A stretch of DNA of 64,000 nt, taken from the NCBI RefSeq assembly GCF_026798195.1, contig NZ_JAPQEZ010000003.1, positions 124,001 through 188,000 on the forward strand, read 5' to 3'. The notes beneath the pieces were generated by a model that searched no databases, had not been told where the DNA came from, and was given only the letters and a program-made list of their open reading frames with translations. A program made the position numbers and the translations under genes. Shown piece by piece: positions 15,737-24,888 of the stretch; the stretch's first letter is position 1; every line of letters starts with the position of its first letter. Source of the stretch: Lentilactobacillus senioris. GTDB lineage: Bacteria; Bacillota; Bacilli; Lactobacillales; Lactobacillaceae.

Positions 15737-16639
15737 GTGCAAACGTATAAAATCACAACCGAATCAGGAAGAATAGACAAAGTAGCTGCAGAACTAGATC
15801 CAACTTTGTCTCGTTCTGCAGCTAAGGAAATGATTGATGCTGGACTTATCAAAGTTAATGATGTTGTTGTCAAAGCTAAGACTACGGTTCAACCAGGAGA
15901 CCTTGTTTCTGTTGCAGCTAGAGAACCAGAAACCTTGGAAGTAATTCCTGAAGACATCCCCTTAGATATTGTCTACGAAGATGATGACGTTATTGTAGTG
16001 AATAAGCCACAAGGAATGGTAGTTCACCCAGCGCCAGGACATACCAGTCATACCTTAGTAAATGCACTTTTATTTCATAGCCCGCTTTCAACCATTAACG
16101 GCACTTACCGTCCGGGGATCGTTCATCGTATTGACAAAGACACTTCTGGTTTATTGATGGTTGCTAAAAACGACAACGCCCATCAATCATTATCTGCGCA
16201 ACTAAAAGCTAAAACAAACTTAAGAAAGTACATTGCTCTAGTTCACGGTATTATTGAAGAAGACGAGGGTACGATTAATGCACCTTTGGGGCGGTCTCCT
16301 AAAGATCGTAAAAAACAAGCTATCGTTGCTAACGGGCGTGAAGCAGTTACCCATTTCAAAGTTCTAGAACGCTTTGAACACTACACACTAATTGAGTGTC
16401 AACTAGAAACTGGTAGAACTCATCAAATTCGGGTGCACTTAAAGTACATTAATCATCCGATTGCAGGGGACCCCATTTATGGTCCTAAGAAAACCTTAAA
16501 GGGCAATGGCCAGTTCTTGCACGCTGGGGAATTAGGCTTTACCCATCCAGTAACAGGAGAATTTTTAACCTTTGAGGCACCATTACCAGCTGTTTTTAAG
16601 CAGACCTTAGATCAATTACGCTTAAATGATAAAAGCTAA
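15737..16639 (+). CDS. rluD: RluD-type 23S rRNA pseudouridine synthase
   Basis: RluA-family pseudouridine synthase, 300 aa: N-terminal S4 RNA-binding domain (about residues 12-75) and a catalytic domain with HRIDKDTSG holding the catalytic D133. ETGRTHQIRVHL and PIAGDPIYG are further family motifs. The start is GTG after an AGAGAGGA site. The lspA-rluD order is widely conserved in Firmicutes, upstream of pyrR in many lactobacilli. Exact target uridines cannot be told from sequence. Confidence 0.93.
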   Translation: MQTYKITTESGRIDKVAAELDPTLSRSAAKEMIDAGLIKVNDVVVKAKTTVQPGDLVSVAAREPETLEVIPEDIPLDIVYEDDDVIVVNKPQGMVVHPAPGHTSHTLVNALLFHSPLSTINGTYRPGIVHRIDKDTSGLLMVAKNDNAHQSLSAQLKAKTNLRKYIALVHGIIEEDEGTINAPLGRSPKDRKKQAIVANGREAVTHFKVLERFEHYTLIECQLETGRTHQIRVHLKYINHPIAGDPIYGPKKTLKGNGQFLHAGELGFTHPVTGEFLTFEAPLPAVFKQTLDQLRLNDKS

Positions 16640-16640
16640 C

Positions 16641-16669
16641 TTGACAATCGTTTCGTAGTTCCATATTCT
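16641..16669 (+). promoter_or_regulatory. Promoter upstream of pyrR
   Basis: TTGACA (16641-16646), a 17-base spacer and TATTCT (16664-16669), beginning one base after the rluD stop. The -35 is a perfect consensus. It would start a transcript near 16676, just before the hairpin at 16690-16716 and the pyrR gene. Confidence 0.7.
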
Positions 16670-16689
16670 AAATTTAATGACATTGTATT

Positions 16690-17276
<587 letters not shown>

Positions 17277-17291
17277 ATGGTGGGTTAAACT

Positions 17292-18389
17292 ATGCCAACA
17301 AAACGATATTTAATTCTTTCTGATGGAACCAGTTATGCTGGCCAAGCATTTGGCTCATTAGCTACTACTACTGGTGAAATCATCACTAATTCAACAATGA
17401 ATGGGTATCAAGAAATTATTACTAATCAAGTTCACCATAATCAAATTATTGTTTTCACTCAACCTTCAATTGGCAATACCGGCTTAGATCAAAATGCTTA
17501 CGAATCTATTTTGCCAACTGCCAAGGGAGTTGTGGTGCGAGAATACGAAAATTTGGCTACGGATCATTTAAAACGAATTTCTTTGGATCGCTACCTCAAA
17601 CAACATGGTATCCCTGGCATTTACGGTATTGATACTAGACAATTACGCCACCATTTACAGCAAACGGGAACCCTGACTGCTAGTATCGTAGATGTTAATG
17701 ATGAACATGCCTTTGATCAGCTAACTGCTACGGTTTTGACTAATCAACAAGTACCTCAAGTAGCTACGCCTAAACCTTATCCTAACCCAGGAGAAGGTGA
17801 TAACGTAGTAGTCGTTGATTTTGGGTTAAAACACGGTATATTAAGGGAATTAGCCAAACGAAACTGTAACGTAACCGTAGTTCCTTGGAACACTACTAGC
17901 GAACGCATTTTGGATTTAGATCCTGATGGAGTAGTCTTGTCTACCGGTCCTGGATCACCTAACAATTTACCAGATTCGGTTTTAACCATGATTCAAGAGA
18001 TTCAAAGTGCAGTGCCACTGATGGCAATTGGGTTAGGTCACCAACTGTTCGGACGGGCGAATGGAGCTACTGCACTTTCGTTACCGGTGGAACACCATGG
18101 TAGCAATCATCCTATTAAAGAAATCATTACCAATGAAACTTTTTATGCTGATCAAGAGCAGGGGTATGAATTAGACACTACTTCCGTGGATCACTCTCGA
18201 TTATTTATCACCTATATTGATGTTATTAATGGCAGTATTCAGGGTCTTCGTCATCGTGACTATCCAGCTTTTTCAGTGGAATTTTTACCAGATGGCGCTC
18301 CAGGCCCTAAAGATCGAGTAGATTTATTTGATGATTTCATTGAAATGATGGCGGTAAGGAGAAGAAACAATAATGGTGCTACATATTAA
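17292..18389 (+). CDS. CarA-like protein lacking the glutaminase catalytic triad
   Basis: Homologous over its whole 365 aa to the small (glutaminase) subunit of carbamoyl-phosphate synthase, with the N-terminal subunit-interaction domain well kept (GYQEIITN, GIYGIDTRQLRHHLQQTGTL, DFGLKHGILREL). The class I amidotransferase site is erased: the nucleophile Cys of the family's GICLGHQ reads AIGLGHQ with G247, and the His and Glu of the family's YHPEA read FLPDG with L332 and D334. The GHRGSNHP substrate motif reads EHHGSNHP, and NHGY reads EQGY. The frame is open with a normal ATG and GGTGGG site. It cannot hydrolyse glutamine by the known mechanism. Overlaps the next gene by 17 bases. Confidence 0.88.
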   Translation: MPTKRYLILSDGTSYAGQAFGSLATTTGEIITNSTMNGYQEIITNQVHHNQIIVFTQPSIGNTGLDQNAYESILPTAKGVVVREYENLATDHLKRISLDRYLKQHGIPGIYGIDTRQLRHHLQQTGTLTASIVDVNDEHAFDQLTATVLTNQQVPQVATPKPYPNPGEGDNVVVVDFGLKHGILRELAKRNCNVTVVPWNTTSERILDLDPDGVVLSTGPGSPNNLPDSVLTMIQEIQSAVPLMAIGLGHQLFGRANGATALSLPVEHHGSNHPIKEIITNETFYADQEQGYELDTTSVDHSRLFITYIDVINGSIQGLRHRDYPAFSVEFLPDGAPGPKDRVDLFDDFIEMMAVRRRNNNGATY

Positions 18390-20880
18390 TAAAGTTTTAT
18401 TAGTCGGTAGTGGCGCAACTAGTATTGGAAACGAAAATGAATTAGACGCAGCCGCATTTGAAAAGTTAATGGCTTTTAAAAAAATGGGCACCAAAGTATT
18501 GTACCTAGACGATAACCCATTTTCAGTAGTCAGTGACGAAATTCAACCAGCTGATGTTTTCATGCAGCAAATTAATTTGGAAAACATTGTTAATTTGATT
18601 ATTCGCCAACAACCGGATGCGCTTTTGTTTAGCGTGTCCGGATTAAAGGGCCAAACTATTGCTAATCAGTTAATTGATTCTGGTGTGTTAGAAGAACACC
18701 ATGTTACCTTACTGGGAATTTCACCAGCAGGACTGCAAACGGTAAACAATAATGATGTTCTTCGCCAAACACTAACTCAAATTAATGAGCGGGTAATTGC
18801 CTCTAAAACCGTTGAATCAGATGAGGAAGCCATAAAATTTGTGCGTGAAATTGGGTTTCCGGTAATTGTTAAACCTATCTCGCACATTCATGATACCAGC
18901 AGAATTATTTGTTTCAATACAGATGATTTAGAAGCAGCATTAGAATACAGTTTTGACCGCGCTTATATTACCCAATGTTCTATCGAGCAAAGCATCGTGG
19001 GTTATAAAGAAATTGAAATGGTGGGAATTAGAGACTCTAGTGGAAATAAAATTTTAATATCTGGGCTCGAAGATATGGATCCAGTAGGAATTCATTCTGG
19101 GGATTCCATTATTTTTGCACCTACTCAAACCTTAATTAATGAAGAATATCAACGATTACGAACTGCTACATTCAAAATTATGGACACTTTGGGTATTACA
19201 GGCAGTTGTCACGTTCAATTTGCCCAGAGTAGAACCAATGAAGAATTTTACGTAACCAAGGTGAGCCCGTTCTTTACCAGAAATACTAGTTTGGCGGCTA
19301 AGGCAAGTGGCTATCCAGTCGCTTATATTTCCACTTTTCTAGAAGCCGGTTTTACATTGGCTGAAGTTAAACTGCCCGCTAAGTACAGTCAAATTAAACC
19401 ATTGATGGAACCTACGTTAGACCATATCTTGGTTAAAATTCCTCTTTGGCCGTTTGAAGATATTCCGGATGCAGATCAACATCTAAACACCATAATGAAA
19501 TCAGTAGGCTCAACCATTGGGGTTGGCAGAACCGTTGAAGAGGCTATTATTAAAGCTATGCATAGCTCTCAATTTTCTCCACGAGACATTTTACCCAGTG
19601 TGCGCTCTATTGATGATGATGAAGTTATTAGCCAATTAATTCACCCACTAGCTAGTCGAATATTAATCTTAATTGAAGCCTTGCGACGGGGATTTTCCAT
19701 TGATGATTTGGCAGAATTGACCCAAATAGATCAATTTTACTTTTACAAGCTCAATCAACTTTTAAAAGCTCAAAAATTTGTGCAAGATAATCCATTAACT
19801 GCCGAAGCCGTTTTAACTGGTCACCAGTATGGATTCGGTGATGGTATGTTAGCTGAACTATGGAGAGTGGACATTTCAGCGATAGAACAACTAAATGAAG
19901 CTAATGATTATCACGTTACCTATAAAGAAATTGAACCTAGTGCAGGAGAATTTCTAGAAAATACTAACATTTTTTATAGCAGCTACGAGCTAGAAAATGA
20001 AAGTCAGCCATTTGATAAGAAAACGGCACTAGTAATTGGACGCGGAGGTAATCAATTAGGACCTAATACCGGTGCTGATTATTATACTTCGCAAACCTTA
20101 ATTCAATTGCATAAATCTGGTTATAAAACTATTATCATGAATAATAACCCCAATGCGGTATCACTTAGTCCGCAACTTAGTGATAAACAATATATTGAGC
20201 CTATTCAACTGGGTAATATCTTGAATATTATCAAATTAGAACAACCCGAGGTAATTATTCTGCCAGGTAATCGACACTACCTAGCCAAGCAACTTAAAAA
20301 ACGTAAAGGATTAAAGATCATTGTTTTACCACCTGATCAAGATATTGCTCAAGTAGTGCGTCCTAAAGTTACTACAGCAGTCGATTTCTTTATTGATGGT
20401 ACTCAAATTATTCCCATTGCTTCTATTTCTTACGGTGTAGCTAGTCACAAAGAAACACATGAATATAATACTAACTACCAACTGCCTATGAAGAACTTCG
20501 CTAAGGATCAAGAGACTTTAACGAATATTGGTAAAGAAAAATTAGCTACTGATGATTGGCAGGGGCTAGTTCAAGTTCTTTTTGAACAACAGGATTCTGG
20601 GGAGTATGAATTTGCTGGAATTCGACCAATCAGAATTACCGAAACTGCCTTTTTAACTAAGGCAACCGGCATTAACTGGGTACGAGTATTAGTGAAAAAA
20701 TACTTAACTGGAGTAGATTCAGAAAGATTAAAACAAGATCTTCAGTTAAGATCAAAGCCTAATCGCTATGCTACCATGACTGGTCATTTTCCATTTAGTC
20801 AGTTAGGAGCTAGACGTCATGCAGGATCAAGTACTCAAGAAATTGGGGCAACTATTGAATTTAAGTCAGTAGAGTACTAA
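18373..20880 (+). CDS. Truncated, degenerate CarB-like protein
   Basis: Related to the large synthetase subunit of carbamoyl-phosphate synthase, but 835 aa instead of about 1060-1070. The first ATP-grasp unit keeps FDPVGIH-like DPVGIHSGDSIIFAPTQT, yet the glycine loop reads ISHIHDTS (about 169-176) and the metal ligands of the family's EVNPR become K296 and S298 (KVSPF). A second unit begins at about 550 (ALVIGRGGNQLGPNTG), lacks the ATP-grasp B domain, and its EVNPR equivalent reads GIRPI (G749, R751). The C-terminal allosteric domain is missing. The frame is open and the ATG lies inside the CarA-like gene, 17 bases before its end. Catalysis is very unlikely; a structural or sensory role is speculation. 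Confidence 0.85.
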   Translation: MVLHINKVLLVGSGATSIGNENELDAAAFEKLMAFKKMGTKVLYLDDNPFSVVSDEIQPADVFMQQINLENIVNLIIRQQPDALLFSVSGLKGQTIANQLIDSGVLEEHHVTLLGISPAGLQTVNNNDVLRQTLTQINERVIASKTVESDEEAIKFVREIGFPVIVKPISHIHDTSRIICFNTDDLEAALEYSFDRAYITQCSIEQSIVGYKEIEMVGIRDSSGNKILISGLEDMDPVGIHSGDSIIFAPTQTLINEEYQRLRTATFKIMDTLGITGSCHVQFAQSRTNEEFYVTKVSPFFTRNTSLAAKASGYPVAYISTFLEAGFTLAEVKLPAKYSQIKPLMEPTLDHILVKIPLWPFEDIPDADQHLNTIMKSVGSTIGVGRTVEEAIIKAMHSSQFSPRDILPSVRSIDDDEVISQLIHPLASRILILIEALRRGFSIDDLAELTQIDQFYFYKLNQLLKAQKFVQDNPLTAEAVLTGHQYGFGDGMLAELWRVDISAIEQLNEANDYHVTYKEIEPSAGEFLENTNIFYSSYELENESQPFDKKTALVIGRGGNQLGPNTGADYYTSQTLIQLHKSGYKTIIMNNNPNAVSLSPQLSDKQYIEPIQLGNILNIIKLEQPEVIILPGNRHYLAKQLKKRKGLKIIVLPPDQDIAQVVRPKVTTAVDFFIDGTQIIPIASISYGVASHKETHEYNTNYQLPMKNFAKDQETLTNIGKEKLATDDWQGLVQVLFEQQDSGEYEFAGIRPIRITETAFLTKATGINWVRVLVKKYLTGVDSERLKQDLQLRSKPNRYATMTGHFPFSQLGARRHAGSSTQEIGATIEFKSVEY

Positions 20881-20888
20881 TTTAACTA

Positions 20889-20930
20889 AAAAAGCAATAA
20901 CTAACAGTTAAACTGTTAGTTATTGCTTTT
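20889..20930. terminator. Bidirectional intrinsic terminator, carB-like / rqcH
   Basis: AAAAGCAATAACTAACAG is followed by a TTAA loop and its full complement ending TTGCTTTTT, an 18-bp stem. It serves both the carB-like gene and the convergent rqcH. Confidence 0.93.
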
Positions 20931-20938
20931 TAATTTGA

Positions 20939-22645
20939 TTATTCATGCAGTTGTTGAACTAATTGCGGGTCTGGATCCACCAATACATTAGTCTGGCCTT
21001 CATAAATTACAAAGCCCGGTTTAGTTCCATTTGGTTTCTTAATAGCTCTCACTTTAACATAATCTACCGGTACTTTAGTACTGCTTCTAGCCTTAGAAAA
21101 ATAAGCGGCTAAACTAGCAGCTTCAAGTAAAGTTTGCTCTGATGGCTCAAAATCACGGATAATTACGTGAGAACCAGGGAGGTCCTTAACGTGTAACCAA
21201 GTATCTCGTTTATCGGCAAAATGAAGGGTTAGTTGTTCATTTTGCAGGTTGTTTTTACCCACTAAAATCTCAGTTCCATCACTTGCAATAAATTTTTCTG
21301 GTTTATTTACTTTATGGCGTTTCTTCTTACTTTTTTGATGTTGCTCATGGTTTCTGAGATAGCCTTGCTGTTCTAATTCATACCGAATTTCTTGTAAATC
21401 TTCCGGATTGGCTAATTCAATTTGAGCCTGGATATTTTCAAAATAATTAATTTCAGCCTTAGTTTCCTTGATTTGTTCCGTCAAATAAGAAATGGCATTT
21501 TTTAGTTTTTGGTAGCGTTTAAAGTATTTTTGAGCATTTTCAGACGGAGAAATTTGGTTAGACAGAGCAATTTTAATTGGTTTGTTTTCGGCATAAAAGT
21601 TGGGCAATTCAATTTCAGTCATTCCTCTTTGAACCTGACTAAGGTAGGTGGTTAAGATTTCACCTTTAATCCGGTATTGGTCCGCCTGGTCAGTTTCAGT
21701 TAATTCTTTTTGTAGTTTTTTCAACTTAGTTCGATTCTTTTTCAGTTGGTTTTTAACTACGTGAATTAAAACACTGCCTTTCTCCCGGACCCGATCTCGC
21801 TGAACTTGATCATGATAGAATTGGTCCAGCAATTCACTTAAAGACGAATATTCAACATTTGAAAGAGTATTTGGATACGGAAAAGCAGTATAATTATATT
21901 TGTTAGTAGCAATTTCGCTAATAGTAGGGGTTGGATGATTAAATCGTTGGAAAAATGCTGTGAAATTATCAACCAGTTCACTGGGTTCGTGAAGGTAACT
22001 TGCTAATGCCAAAGATGTGTCCTTACCAAGTCCTTGAATTTTTTGCCGCAATTGATCAGCTAAAACATCAGCATTAGGATAATCACGAACAATATTTTCA
22101 ATTTCTTTAAAATTATTAACATTAAATGGATCTAATACATCTTGCTTGGGGGGATTAACATAGGTTGCTCCCGGTAATAGCGTTCTATATCTGTTAACAT
22201 CACTGTTAACTCTTTTGATAGCATCGATAATTTTATTGGTGGCTTGATCAATTAAAATGATATTACTGTGTCTGGCCATAATTTCAATAATTAAGCGTAA
22301 TTCTATTTGGTCTCCAATTTCATTTCGAGAACTAAAATCAAAATGTAAAACTCGGTCATTACCCGGTTGAGTAATTTGTTTTAAAATTGCGCCGTTTAAA
22401 TACTTTCGAATTAGCATCGTAAAGTTGCTAGGAACATCCGGATTAACTGAAGGAATTTTCGTAATTTGGACCCGCGCATAAGTCGGGTTAGCAGATAACA
22501 GTAACTGGTGGCTTTTACCGTGGGCTCTGATTGTTAAAATCAATTCATTGGGGTATGGTTGATTAATCTTACTAATTCGACCCGTTGTAAGTTCACAGTC
22601 TAATTCGTTTCTAACTGCATGTAGAAAGGATCCGTCAAATGACAT
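20939..22645 (-). CDS. rqcH: RqcH/FbpA, NFACT-family ribosome quality control protein
   Basis: Bacterial Rqc2 homologue (also annotated fibronectin-binding protein FbpA) that binds stalled 50S subunits and recruits tRNA-Ala to add C-terminal alanine tails. The 568-aa protein has the NFACT-N domain (about 1-170) with helix-hairpin-helix GLGKDTSLALASYL near residues 201-214, a long coiled coil (about 280-420), and the C-terminal NFACT-R domain with GKNNLQNEQLT and LPGSHVIIRD. An N-terminal MSFDGSFLHAV is typical. Single gene; divergent from the marR gene. Confidence 0.93.
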   Translation of the reverse strand: MSFDGSFLHAVRNELDCELTTGRISKINQPYPNELILTIRAHGKSHQLLLSANPTYARVQITKIPSVNPDVPSNFTMLIRKYLNGAILKQITQPGNDRVLHFDFSSRNEIGDQIELRLIIEIMARHSNIILIDQATNKIIDAIKRVNSDVNRYRTLLPGATYVNPPKQDVLDPFNVNNFKEIENIVRDYPNADVLADQLRQKIQGLGKDTSLALASYLHEPSELVDNFTAFFQRFNHPTPTISEIATNKYNYTAFPYPNTLSNVEYSSLSELLDQFYHDQVQRDRVREKGSVLIHVVKNQLKKNRTKLKKLQKELTETDQADQYRIKGEILTTYLSQVQRGMTEIELPNFYAENKPIKIALSNQISPSENAQKYFKRYQKLKNAISYLTEQIKETKAEINYFENIQAQIELANPEDLQEIRYELEQQGYLRNHEQHQKSKKKRHKVNKPEKFIASDGTEILVGKNNLQNEQLTLHFADKRDTWLHVKDLPGSHVIIRDFEPSEQTLLEAASLAAYFSKARSSTKVPVDYVKVRAIKKPNGTKPGFVIYEGQTNVLVDPDPQLVQQLHE

Positions 22646-24158: not shown

Positions 24159-24194
24159 GTAGGATATGCTATGCTTTAATAGTTACAAAATAAA

Positions 24195-24290
24195 TGGGGT
24201 AGGATTCAATGCGTTAAGGACCAGCGGAACGGAATGTGAACGTTGGTAGAAGAACTTTAGGTTCGCGTCATTGTTTTCGCATTCACCAAT
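24195..24290 (+). ncRNA. THF (tetrahydrofolate) riboswitch, class I
   Basis: The leader matches the THF riboswitch pattern: GGTAGGATTCAATGCGTTAAG at the 5' side, then P3 ACCAGCG (24220-24226) pairing with CGTTGGT around the loop GAACGGAATGTGAA, which resembles the family's GAAUGGGAUGU loop, a small GAAC/GTTC hairpin, and CATTG (24269-24273) closing P2 with CAATG (24208-24212). It precedes a folate transporter gene, the known context. Assignment is by eye against remembered consensus; a covariance-model search would settle it. Confidence 0.85.
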
Positions 24291-24345: not shown

Positions 24346-24888
24346 ATGATGAAGTCAATTACAGACTCATTTACGTTTAAAAAACTACGGACATTGGATA
24401 TCGTGGTTTTAGGATTGTTACTGGCAGCTGGTTTAGTGTTAAATCAACTAACGTTTGGTACTCAATTCATTCAGTTAGGATTTGGTTTTGTAGTTACGGC
24501 ACTAATTAGTGCCTGGTACGGCCCGTGGTGGTCAGCGTCGGTAGCGGCCATTGCTGATATCGTGGGAACCATCTTAACTGGGGGCGTTTACTTTCCCGGT
24601 TTCACCGTTTCTGCCATCCTAGGCGCCGTTATTTACGGAATCTTTTTTTACCAACGAAAGGCAACTTGGGCTAATGTGATTATATCCCAACTCATTATTG
24701 CCGTAGTGGTCAATACGCTTTTAAACACATTGTGGCTAACTTTAATGTATAAAACTCCGTTTTGGGCTTTGGTATCTACTAGAATAGTTAAGGAAGTAAT
24801 AATCACTCCCATCCAAATTATTATTTTATATTTAGTTTTAAACTCTCATTTAATAAAAAAACTAAAAAGCAGATTAAACGCTAAATAG
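24346..24888 (+). CDS. folT: Folate ECF transporter S component FolT
   Basis: Substrate-binding membrane subunit of an energy-coupling-factor transporter; it captures folate and docks with the shared EcfA-EcfA'-EcfT module, which is not in this window. At 180 aa it has five to six hydrophobic helices and the FolT-like segment GPWWSASVAAIADIVG plus YFPGFTVSAILGAVIYG (about residues 83-99). The THF riboswitch directly upstream supports folate over other vitamins. The ATG at 24346 is used; a second ATG follows directly. Confidence 0.9.
   Translation: MMKSITDSFTFKKLRTLDIVVLGLLLAAGLVLNQLTFGTQFIQLGFGFVVTALISAWYGPWWSASVAAIADIVGTILTGGVYFPGFTVSAILGAVIYGIFFYQRKATWANVIISQLIIAVVVNTLLNTLWLTLMYKTPFWALVSTRIVKEVIITPIQIIILYLVLNSHLIKKLKSRLNAK

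Follow-up and report, generated by a model that had tools for sequence, protein, structure and literature searches.

Why would a bacterium keep genes for both subunits of an enzyme when the residues needed for catalysis are missing from both? The question is raised by a 64,000-nucleotide stretch of Lentilactobacillus senioris DNA (assembly GCF_026798195.1, contig NZ_JAPQEZ010000003.1, positions 124,001 to 188,000), referred to here as the window and numbered from its first letter, which contains two adjacent genes resembling those for the small (CarA) and large (CarB) subunits of carbamoyl-phosphate synthetase (CPS). We call them carA' and carB'. The original prediction, made from the sequence alone, had proposed a retained, non-catalytic two-subunit complex, and this proposal is supported by the conservation of the pair and by the loss of residues in both proteins, which would assemble and be inactive. 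We lean slightly towards the view that CarA'-CarB' is a pseudoenzyme that arose from CPS and now serves in regulation or as a scaffold, in many cases together with PyrR, whose gene precedes the pair.

Loss of catalytic residues in CarA' and CarB'

Sequences were compared with Escherichia coli CPS, to which the residue roles and domain boundaries given here refer. In CarA' the Cys-His-Glu triad of the glutaminase reads Gly, Leu and Asp (C269 to G247 and H353 to L332 for the first two), and Ser47 is replaced by Val. These losses at the glutaminase site had been left out of the original prediction. The Asp at the place of Glu355 is no sign of loss, because the canonical CarA of lactobacilli also has Asp there. 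Of the 44 loci found with CarB', 41 were compared together with the window, leaving out L035, where CarB' is cut by a contig end, and the fused genes of L042 and L043 (L numbers are our labels for loci, as G and g are for genomes and genera). Catalytic Cys, His and Ser47 were replaced in all 42 loci, the cysteine position being Gly throughout. In a wider sampling, the place of Cys269 was Gly in 30/30 dead representatives of two sequence groups and Cys in 14/14 canonical rows. As a separate observation, the fused genes (L042:3825-8261 and L043:3798-8234) come from two Bdellovibrionales metagenome assemblies and encode CarA and CarB in one frame of 1478 amino acids, like the eukaryotic fused CPS.

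In CarB', the predicted changes at the metal ligands of the first ATP-grasp site were recovered by alignment (E299 and N301 of E. coli CarB become K296 and S298), as was a glycine loop reading ISHIHDTS; R303 and R129 are additionally replaced by F300 and N127. What this domain has lost is the residue set required for ATP and metal, and what it keeps in the window is its fold and residues E215, G241, H243 and Q285. The claimed deletion in the second ATP-grasp domain also held, since most canonical-invariant positions from about 646 to 749 (E. coli numbering) are gaps. At this second site R715 and G721-G722 are deleted, Q829, E841 and N843 are listed as Leu, Gly and Arg, and the motif EVNPR (E841-R845) reads GIRPI. 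The C-terminal allosteric domain is gone, as had been stated: the structural alignment stops at E. coli residues 925/926, and no MGS domain is listed among the Pfam matches. CarA' passes its NCBIfam small-subunit models, and the score of CarB' with the equivalog model TIGR01369 is 532.7 bits, below the cut-off of 1027. Among the representatives examined, the loss of catalytic residues is family-wide, as expected of a pseudoenzyme. Judged by sequence and model, CarA' and CarB' are very probably non-catalytic, and by catalytic criteria the pair appears to fit the concept of a pseudoenzyme and not that of a functional CPS.

The reading frame of carB' is uninterrupted over its 835 codons. Its ATG, preceded by an AAGGAG motif, lies within carA', and the 17-base overlap of the two genes given in the original prediction was recovered. 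The accompanying argument that a random pseudogene should carry stops could be given a number: a frame of this base composition would stay open over 835 codons with a probability of about 3e-27.

Selection, distribution and rival explanations

Ratios of nonsynonymous to synonymous substitution (dN/dS, NG86) were calculated for 18 close pairs, several of which are near saturation at silent sites. They were 0.008-0.038 for CarB' in the 11 pairs where they could be computed (0.011-0.038 in the eight with dS <2) and 0.005-0.037 for CarA' in 14 pairs. The values for rluD in the same pairs, 0.009-0.094, cover a comparable range. A dN/dS near 1, named beforehand as a result that would speak against retention, thus did not occur, and both genes are under purifying selection, as a pseudoenzyme should be. 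An AlphaFold2 model of CarB' built from 17 rows (pLDDT 77.6, pTM 0.81) matched E. coli CPS (1a9x_A) over the whole length of CarB' with a template-modelling score of 0.86, and matched 1c30_A with a Z score of 33.8 over 798 residues, indicating that the predicted fold is that of CPS.

To locate the constraint, mean pairwise identity of the pseudo form was divided by that of the canonical form in 15 genomes of sequence group 1 that carry both, with domain boundaries set by hand in E. coli numbering. This ratio was 0.99 (0.92-1.05) for the N-domain of CarA, 0.90 (0.85-0.94) for its GATase domain and 0.87 (0.81-0.93) for the oligomerisation domain of CarB. It fell to 0.41 in pre-ATP-grasp 1, 0.53 in ATP-grasp 1, 0.51 in pre-ATP-grasp 2 and 0.30 in the remnant of ATP-grasp 2. 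With CarA' and the oligomerisation domain conserved and the catalytic domains relaxed, it is assembly and the surfaces of CarA' that appear to be constrained, and not catalysis.

The same architecture had been suggested for a search in other lactobacilli, and it recurs across genera, so that presence in a single strain is not the case. A CarB' profile search passed 303 of 397 Lactobacillaceae genomes at 1e-200. Canonical CarB reaches scores of up to about 1e-204 in one search and 1e-210 in two others, and CarB' scores 1e-217 or better; subtracting by hand count the 76 matches with a best E-value above 1e-215 (among them the fragmented G295, 8.5e-215) left CarB' in about 227/397 genomes by profile score and in 21/40 sampled genera. 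The open frames were 662-906 amino acids long among the matches listed. A further-diverged form, about 790-806 amino acids long, occurs in genera g4, g9 and g35, and at least one genome each of g11, g14, g17, g27 and g37 encodes a dead form of full length. In total, at least one genome in 29 of the 40 sampled genera of this industrially important family carries a dead form, and thus a putative two-subunit pseudoenzyme. In an order-wide search of 295 genomes, short frames were seen, among the matches listed, only in family f1, the Lactobacillaceae, the listed matches of other families having at least 1058 amino acids. Five genomes of that survey, G400, G456 (g44), G521 (g49), G598 and G629 (g67), gave unusually low CarB matches (1e-139 to 1e-162), and such matches outside the family may be other diverged CPS forms.

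One rival explanation is an enzyme with changed chemistry, working in the remodelled first ATP-grasp pocket, and the pocket of group 1 lends itself to this idea. The place of E299 is Lys or Arg in 22/22 sequences, that of G179 is Arg in 21/22 and that of N283 is His in 19/22, compared with a mean fixation of 11.5/22 over 93 substituted invariant positions; E215 (21/22), G241 (22/22) and H243 (20/22) are kept, and places 174-176, 178 and 180 vary freely. The fixed replacements fit a re-used pocket. New chemistry in it is nevertheless unlikely, because the metal ligands, the glycine loop, the second site and both glutaminase residues (Cys and His) have been lost, groups 1 and 2 do not have the same pocket, and the first ATP-grasp domain is much less conserved than its canonical counterpart.

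Another explanation is that the pair partners and regulates the active CPS within one cell, for example in mixed oligomers formed through the oligomerisation domain. Both forms do coexist in many species, the 15 genomes compared above among them, and the conserved parts are the oligomerisation domain and CarA'. This is distinctly unlikely given that no CPS large subunit other than CarB' was found in 43 of 301 genomes, including the host of the window, where it is the sole large-subunit match. The 43 were counted by hand, taking a best TIGR01369 E-value between 1e-62 and 1e-170 as the criterion. Two candidates were scored per genome; scoring was extended to all candidates in 10 of the 43 and in the host genome, and, in another search, in four of the 43 (G104 and G177 being in both sets).

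The same genomes bear on whether carbamoyl phosphate is still made. Twenty-eight of the 43 lack PyrB, absence in genomes not printed being taken from the match list, and therefore the pair is not kept there to supply PyrB. The host genome gave no match to the PyrB model; its two OTCase_N matches resemble, by our own reading, ornithine and putrescine carbamoyltransferases and not PyrB. Eight further genomes, outside the 43 and with residues checked in five, have one full-length low-scoring match each (G017, G027, G052, G083, G110, G200, G242 and G299), and none has a PyrB match. PyrB is present without a canonical CPS being found in G028, G035, G043, G047, G069, G094, G102, G104, G165, G177, G197, G213, G220, G231 and G289, of which G165 is only 87% complete. 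That the pair still makes carbamoyl phosphate, at least in such PyrB-containing strains, is hardly credible: its second ATP site has been removed or substituted, none of the 30 representatives has the glutaminase Cys, and enzymes of the arginine deiminase pathway could supply the compound, a cluster resembling that pathway being seen by our reading in the host. Finally, pseudogene decay at a stage before any stop had arisen would account for the lost residues and domains and for the fast divergence of the catalytic domains of CarB', and was rejected as extremely improbable in view of the low dN/dS, the wide distribution with open frames, a CarA' nearly as conserved as canonical CarA, and the minute chance of an open frame given above.

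The rluD-rqcH locus and its possible link to PyrR

In the window, three plus-strand genes, pyrR, carA' and carB', occupy 16746-20880 between a rluD-like and a rqcH-like gene (Table 1). The unit is thus larger than originally described, since it includes pyrR, and it resembles what would be left of a pyr operon at the rluD locus. CarB' is 94% identical to its counterpart at locus L007.

Table 1. Position of the genes, altered residues and candidate signals of the pyrR-carA'-carB' locus in the window.
Feature	Position	Strand	Remarks
rluD-like gene	15737-16639		5' flank of pyrR-carA'-carB'; name by own reading
Candidate sigma-70-like promoter for pyrR-carA'-carB', TTGACA-17-TATTCT	16641..16669	+	Just past the rluD stop; consensus 10/12
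pyrR	16746..17276	+	176 amino acids; NCBIfam NF003548, 266.6 bits, cut-off 218
carA', pseudo-small subunit	17292..18389	+	365 amino acids; Pfam CPSase_sm_chain and GATase
Gly247 of carA'	18030..18032	+	Place of catalytic Cys269 of E. coli CarA; alignment
Leu332 of carA'	18285..18287	+	Place of catalytic His353; alignments
carB', pseudo-large subunit	18373..20880	+	835 amino acids
Former glycine-rich ATP loop and Arg177 of carB'	18877..18903	+	Arg177 replaces Gly179
Former metal ligands of ATP site 1, K296 and S298	19258..19266	+	Places of E299 and N301; alignment
Oligomerisation domain of CarB', Pfam CPSase_L_D3, residues 421-497	19633..19863	+	Highest preservation within CarB' when measured against canonical CPS
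Terminator-like hairpin, 20-pair stem	20889..20931	+	3' of carB'; scan
rqcH-like gene	20939-22645	-	Flank beyond carB'; name by own reading

The locus reads as an operon remnant because the gene order between rluD and rqcH runs, across the genomes compared, from a full pyr operon to carA-carB alone (gene names by our own reading, except car and pyrB). G012 (g13) has pyrR, pyrP, pyrB, pyrC, carA, carB, pyrK, pyrD, pyrF and pyrE, with the CPS residues intact. In G010 (g11) and G052 (g14) the order is pyrR-pyrP-carA-carB and the subunits are full-length but dead; it is pyrP-carA-carB in G027 and carA-carB alone in G299, G242 and G017. The window type is pyrR-carA'-carB' with a truncated CarB'. 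In a tree of CarA, sequences of the window type form one clade (100/100), and the intact CarA of g13 and g11 lie near dead lineages. The intact g13 CarA falls among dead sequences in that tree, and a single dead clade was not rejected (approximately unbiased test, p 0.48); a first tree with fewer dead sequences split them into two groups. The trees are therefore compatible with one loss of catalysis as well as with several. That carA'-carB' derive from the carAB of a pyr operon that was situated between rluD and rqcH and was stripped of its remaining biosynthetic genes is, in our judgement, probable.

In most of the loci compared, pyrR is a neighbour of the pair. It stands directly 5' of carA' in the 42 loci examined (L022 is cut by a contig end) and is adjacent in 19/20 fetched genus representatives. 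The pyrR of the window encodes the sole close PyrR found in its genome, where a search returned one further, weak match (28% identity). A second PyrR is found in G332, a Lactiplantibacillus-like genome that has, by our reading, a carAB divergent from arg genes, a pyr operon headed by pyrR1, and the order rluD-pyrR-carA'-carB'; the PyrR beside carA'-carB' is 65% identical to the first. We take this arrangement to be the layout of L. plantarum, argCJBDF/carAB included. The second canonical CarB of G332, beside the arg genes (L191:5109-8171, minus strand), has 1020 amino acids only; it retains the active-site residues, Asp standing at E841.

In L. plantarum, pyrR1 is listed as lp_2704 and pyrR2 as lp_1782 (PMC7911632), and PyrR2 is cited as controlling the pyr operon in response to inorganic carbon (PMC3582564). 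In the former article pyrR2 is given as 2.1-fold down in one strain and unchanged in the other, and the CPS figure names no third pair (PMC7911632). By elimination, lp_1782 would be the PyrR preceding carA'-carB', and the pseudo-CPS is perhaps tied to this carbon-responsive regulator. A CPS large chain, which may be of either kind, is recorded in an L. reuteri proteome (PMC11445297).

The signals around the operon of the window are faint. Promoter-like sites numbered 14 in the scan compared with a shuffle mean of 15.5, and terminator-like sites 3 compared with 3.1, the stem after carB' being the longest of the three. A search of the window with Rfam at gathering threshold returned only RNase P and a tetrahydrofolate (THF) riboswitch, and no PyrR-type attenuator before the operon; a relaxed search of 16400-17000 gave two matches, both far below their gathering scores. 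The leader hairpin of the window is common to L007 and, in part, L001, the remaining leaders printed having other hairpins or none, and it was not used as evidence. Elsewhere in the host, three RNAs resembling PyrR sites, all under the Rfam gathering score, precede (by our own reading) a uracil-permease-like gene, a nucleoside deoxyribosyltransferase-like gene and a PhnD-type transporter operon. The last of these RNAs (C1:111746-111872, minus strand, in L195, G000:C1:104000-113500) scored 41.8 bits against a gathering score of 54. The PhnD-type ABC-transporter operon 3' of it ends in a nucleotidase-like gene, again by our reading, which hints at pyrimidine-controlled nucleotide uptake. Unconnected with this, the THF riboswitch (24193-24290, plus strand, 64.3 bits) lies directly 5' of the gene at 24346 for a 180-amino-acid membrane protein, which by our reading is probably a folate transporter component.

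Taken together, the pseudoenzyme that we favour, with its role in regulation or as a scaffold, could work as follows. CarA' and CarB' probably assemble as a CPS-like heterodimer or oligomer, which would be able neither to hydrolyse glutamine nor to make carbamoyl phosphate. The re-tuned dead site and the pseudo-glutaminase would serve as binding places for a metabolite or a protein. Pyrimidine control would be modulated by the assembly, which in most species would act through the product of the upstream pyrR. The chances of a regulatory role seem to us about evenly balanced, and PyrR as its target is a tentative proposal.

Several observations weigh against this scheme or parts of it. The model of CarA' is weak (pTM 0.55), its best structural matches being nonetheless CPS small subunits. 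The pocket residues fixed in group 1 are missing from group 2, which counts against one common ligand. At the place of Arg303, 18/22 sequences have Tyr or Phe; biotin carboxylase binds bicarbonate with the corresponding Arg, and the replacement weakens the case for bicarbonate sensing. The fifteen genomes that have PyrB, and in which no canonical CPS was found, leave room for a catalytic role there. Moreover, pyrR is not adjacent to carA'-carB' in the g6 loci fetched and in G042. Twelve of 301 genomes have no PyrR match, and among these G242 and G299 (each 99% complete) and G017 (87%) carry the full-length dead pair, so that PyrR is not its obligatory partner. A more specific version, which we regard as doubtful, is that the operon shrank to an RNA-binding regulator and a dead first enzyme. 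The pseudo-CPS would then be a metabolite-sensing scaffold that sets PyrR activity, with bicarbonate, glutamine or a phosphorylated pyrimidine precursor as candidate signals; it would supply PyrR2 with its inorganic-carbon input and would persist as a pyrimidine sensor in species without pyrimidine synthesis.

Comparison with known systems

No description of an inactive, truncated or pseudo CPS pair was found in the titles and abstract openings searched, and the original PyrR2 paper may mention the neighbouring genes. The names and domains of CarA' and CarB' still read as CPS, and metabolic models may therefore be misled: strains without canonical CPS and PyrB appear able to make carbamoyl phosphate. 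The split of constraint, between CarA' and the oligomerisation domain on one side and the catalytic domains on the other, would make the pair a clear case of function outliving catalysis. If the pair does work with PyrR2, inorganic-carbon sensing for pyrimidine and arginine synthesis in lactobacilli becomes directly testable. The pyrR2 system of L. plantarum resembles the present one in that a second PyrR is followed by carA'-carB' in G332, if its match to lp_1782 is correct; it differs in that no part of carA'B' in the inorganic-carbon response is described in the passages available (PMC3582564, PMC7911632).

With E. coli CarA-CarB (1a9x, 1c30), the pair shares adjacent subunit genes, the fold over 785-800 aligned residues of CarB' and identical Pfam domains in the remaining parts. 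It differs by the replacement of Cys269, His353 and Ser47 in CarA' and of ATP site 1 in CarB', and by the absence from CarB' of part of the second ATP-grasp domain and of the MGS domain. Human mitochondrial CPS1 (5dou) is the top structural neighbour of CarB' (Z 34.9), and its glutaminase-like domain also lacks the catalytic Cys. In CPS1, however, the two ATP sites that CarB' has lost are both present, and the enzyme converts ammonia to carbamoyl phosphate. Catalytically dead paralogues kept by selection are known, such as the pseudo-dihydroorotase of fungal CAD-like proteins and HisZ, and CarA'-CarB' would join them with two differences: both subunits of the complex appear dead, and in 28 of 301 genomes the pair is found with PyrB and canonical CPS also missing.

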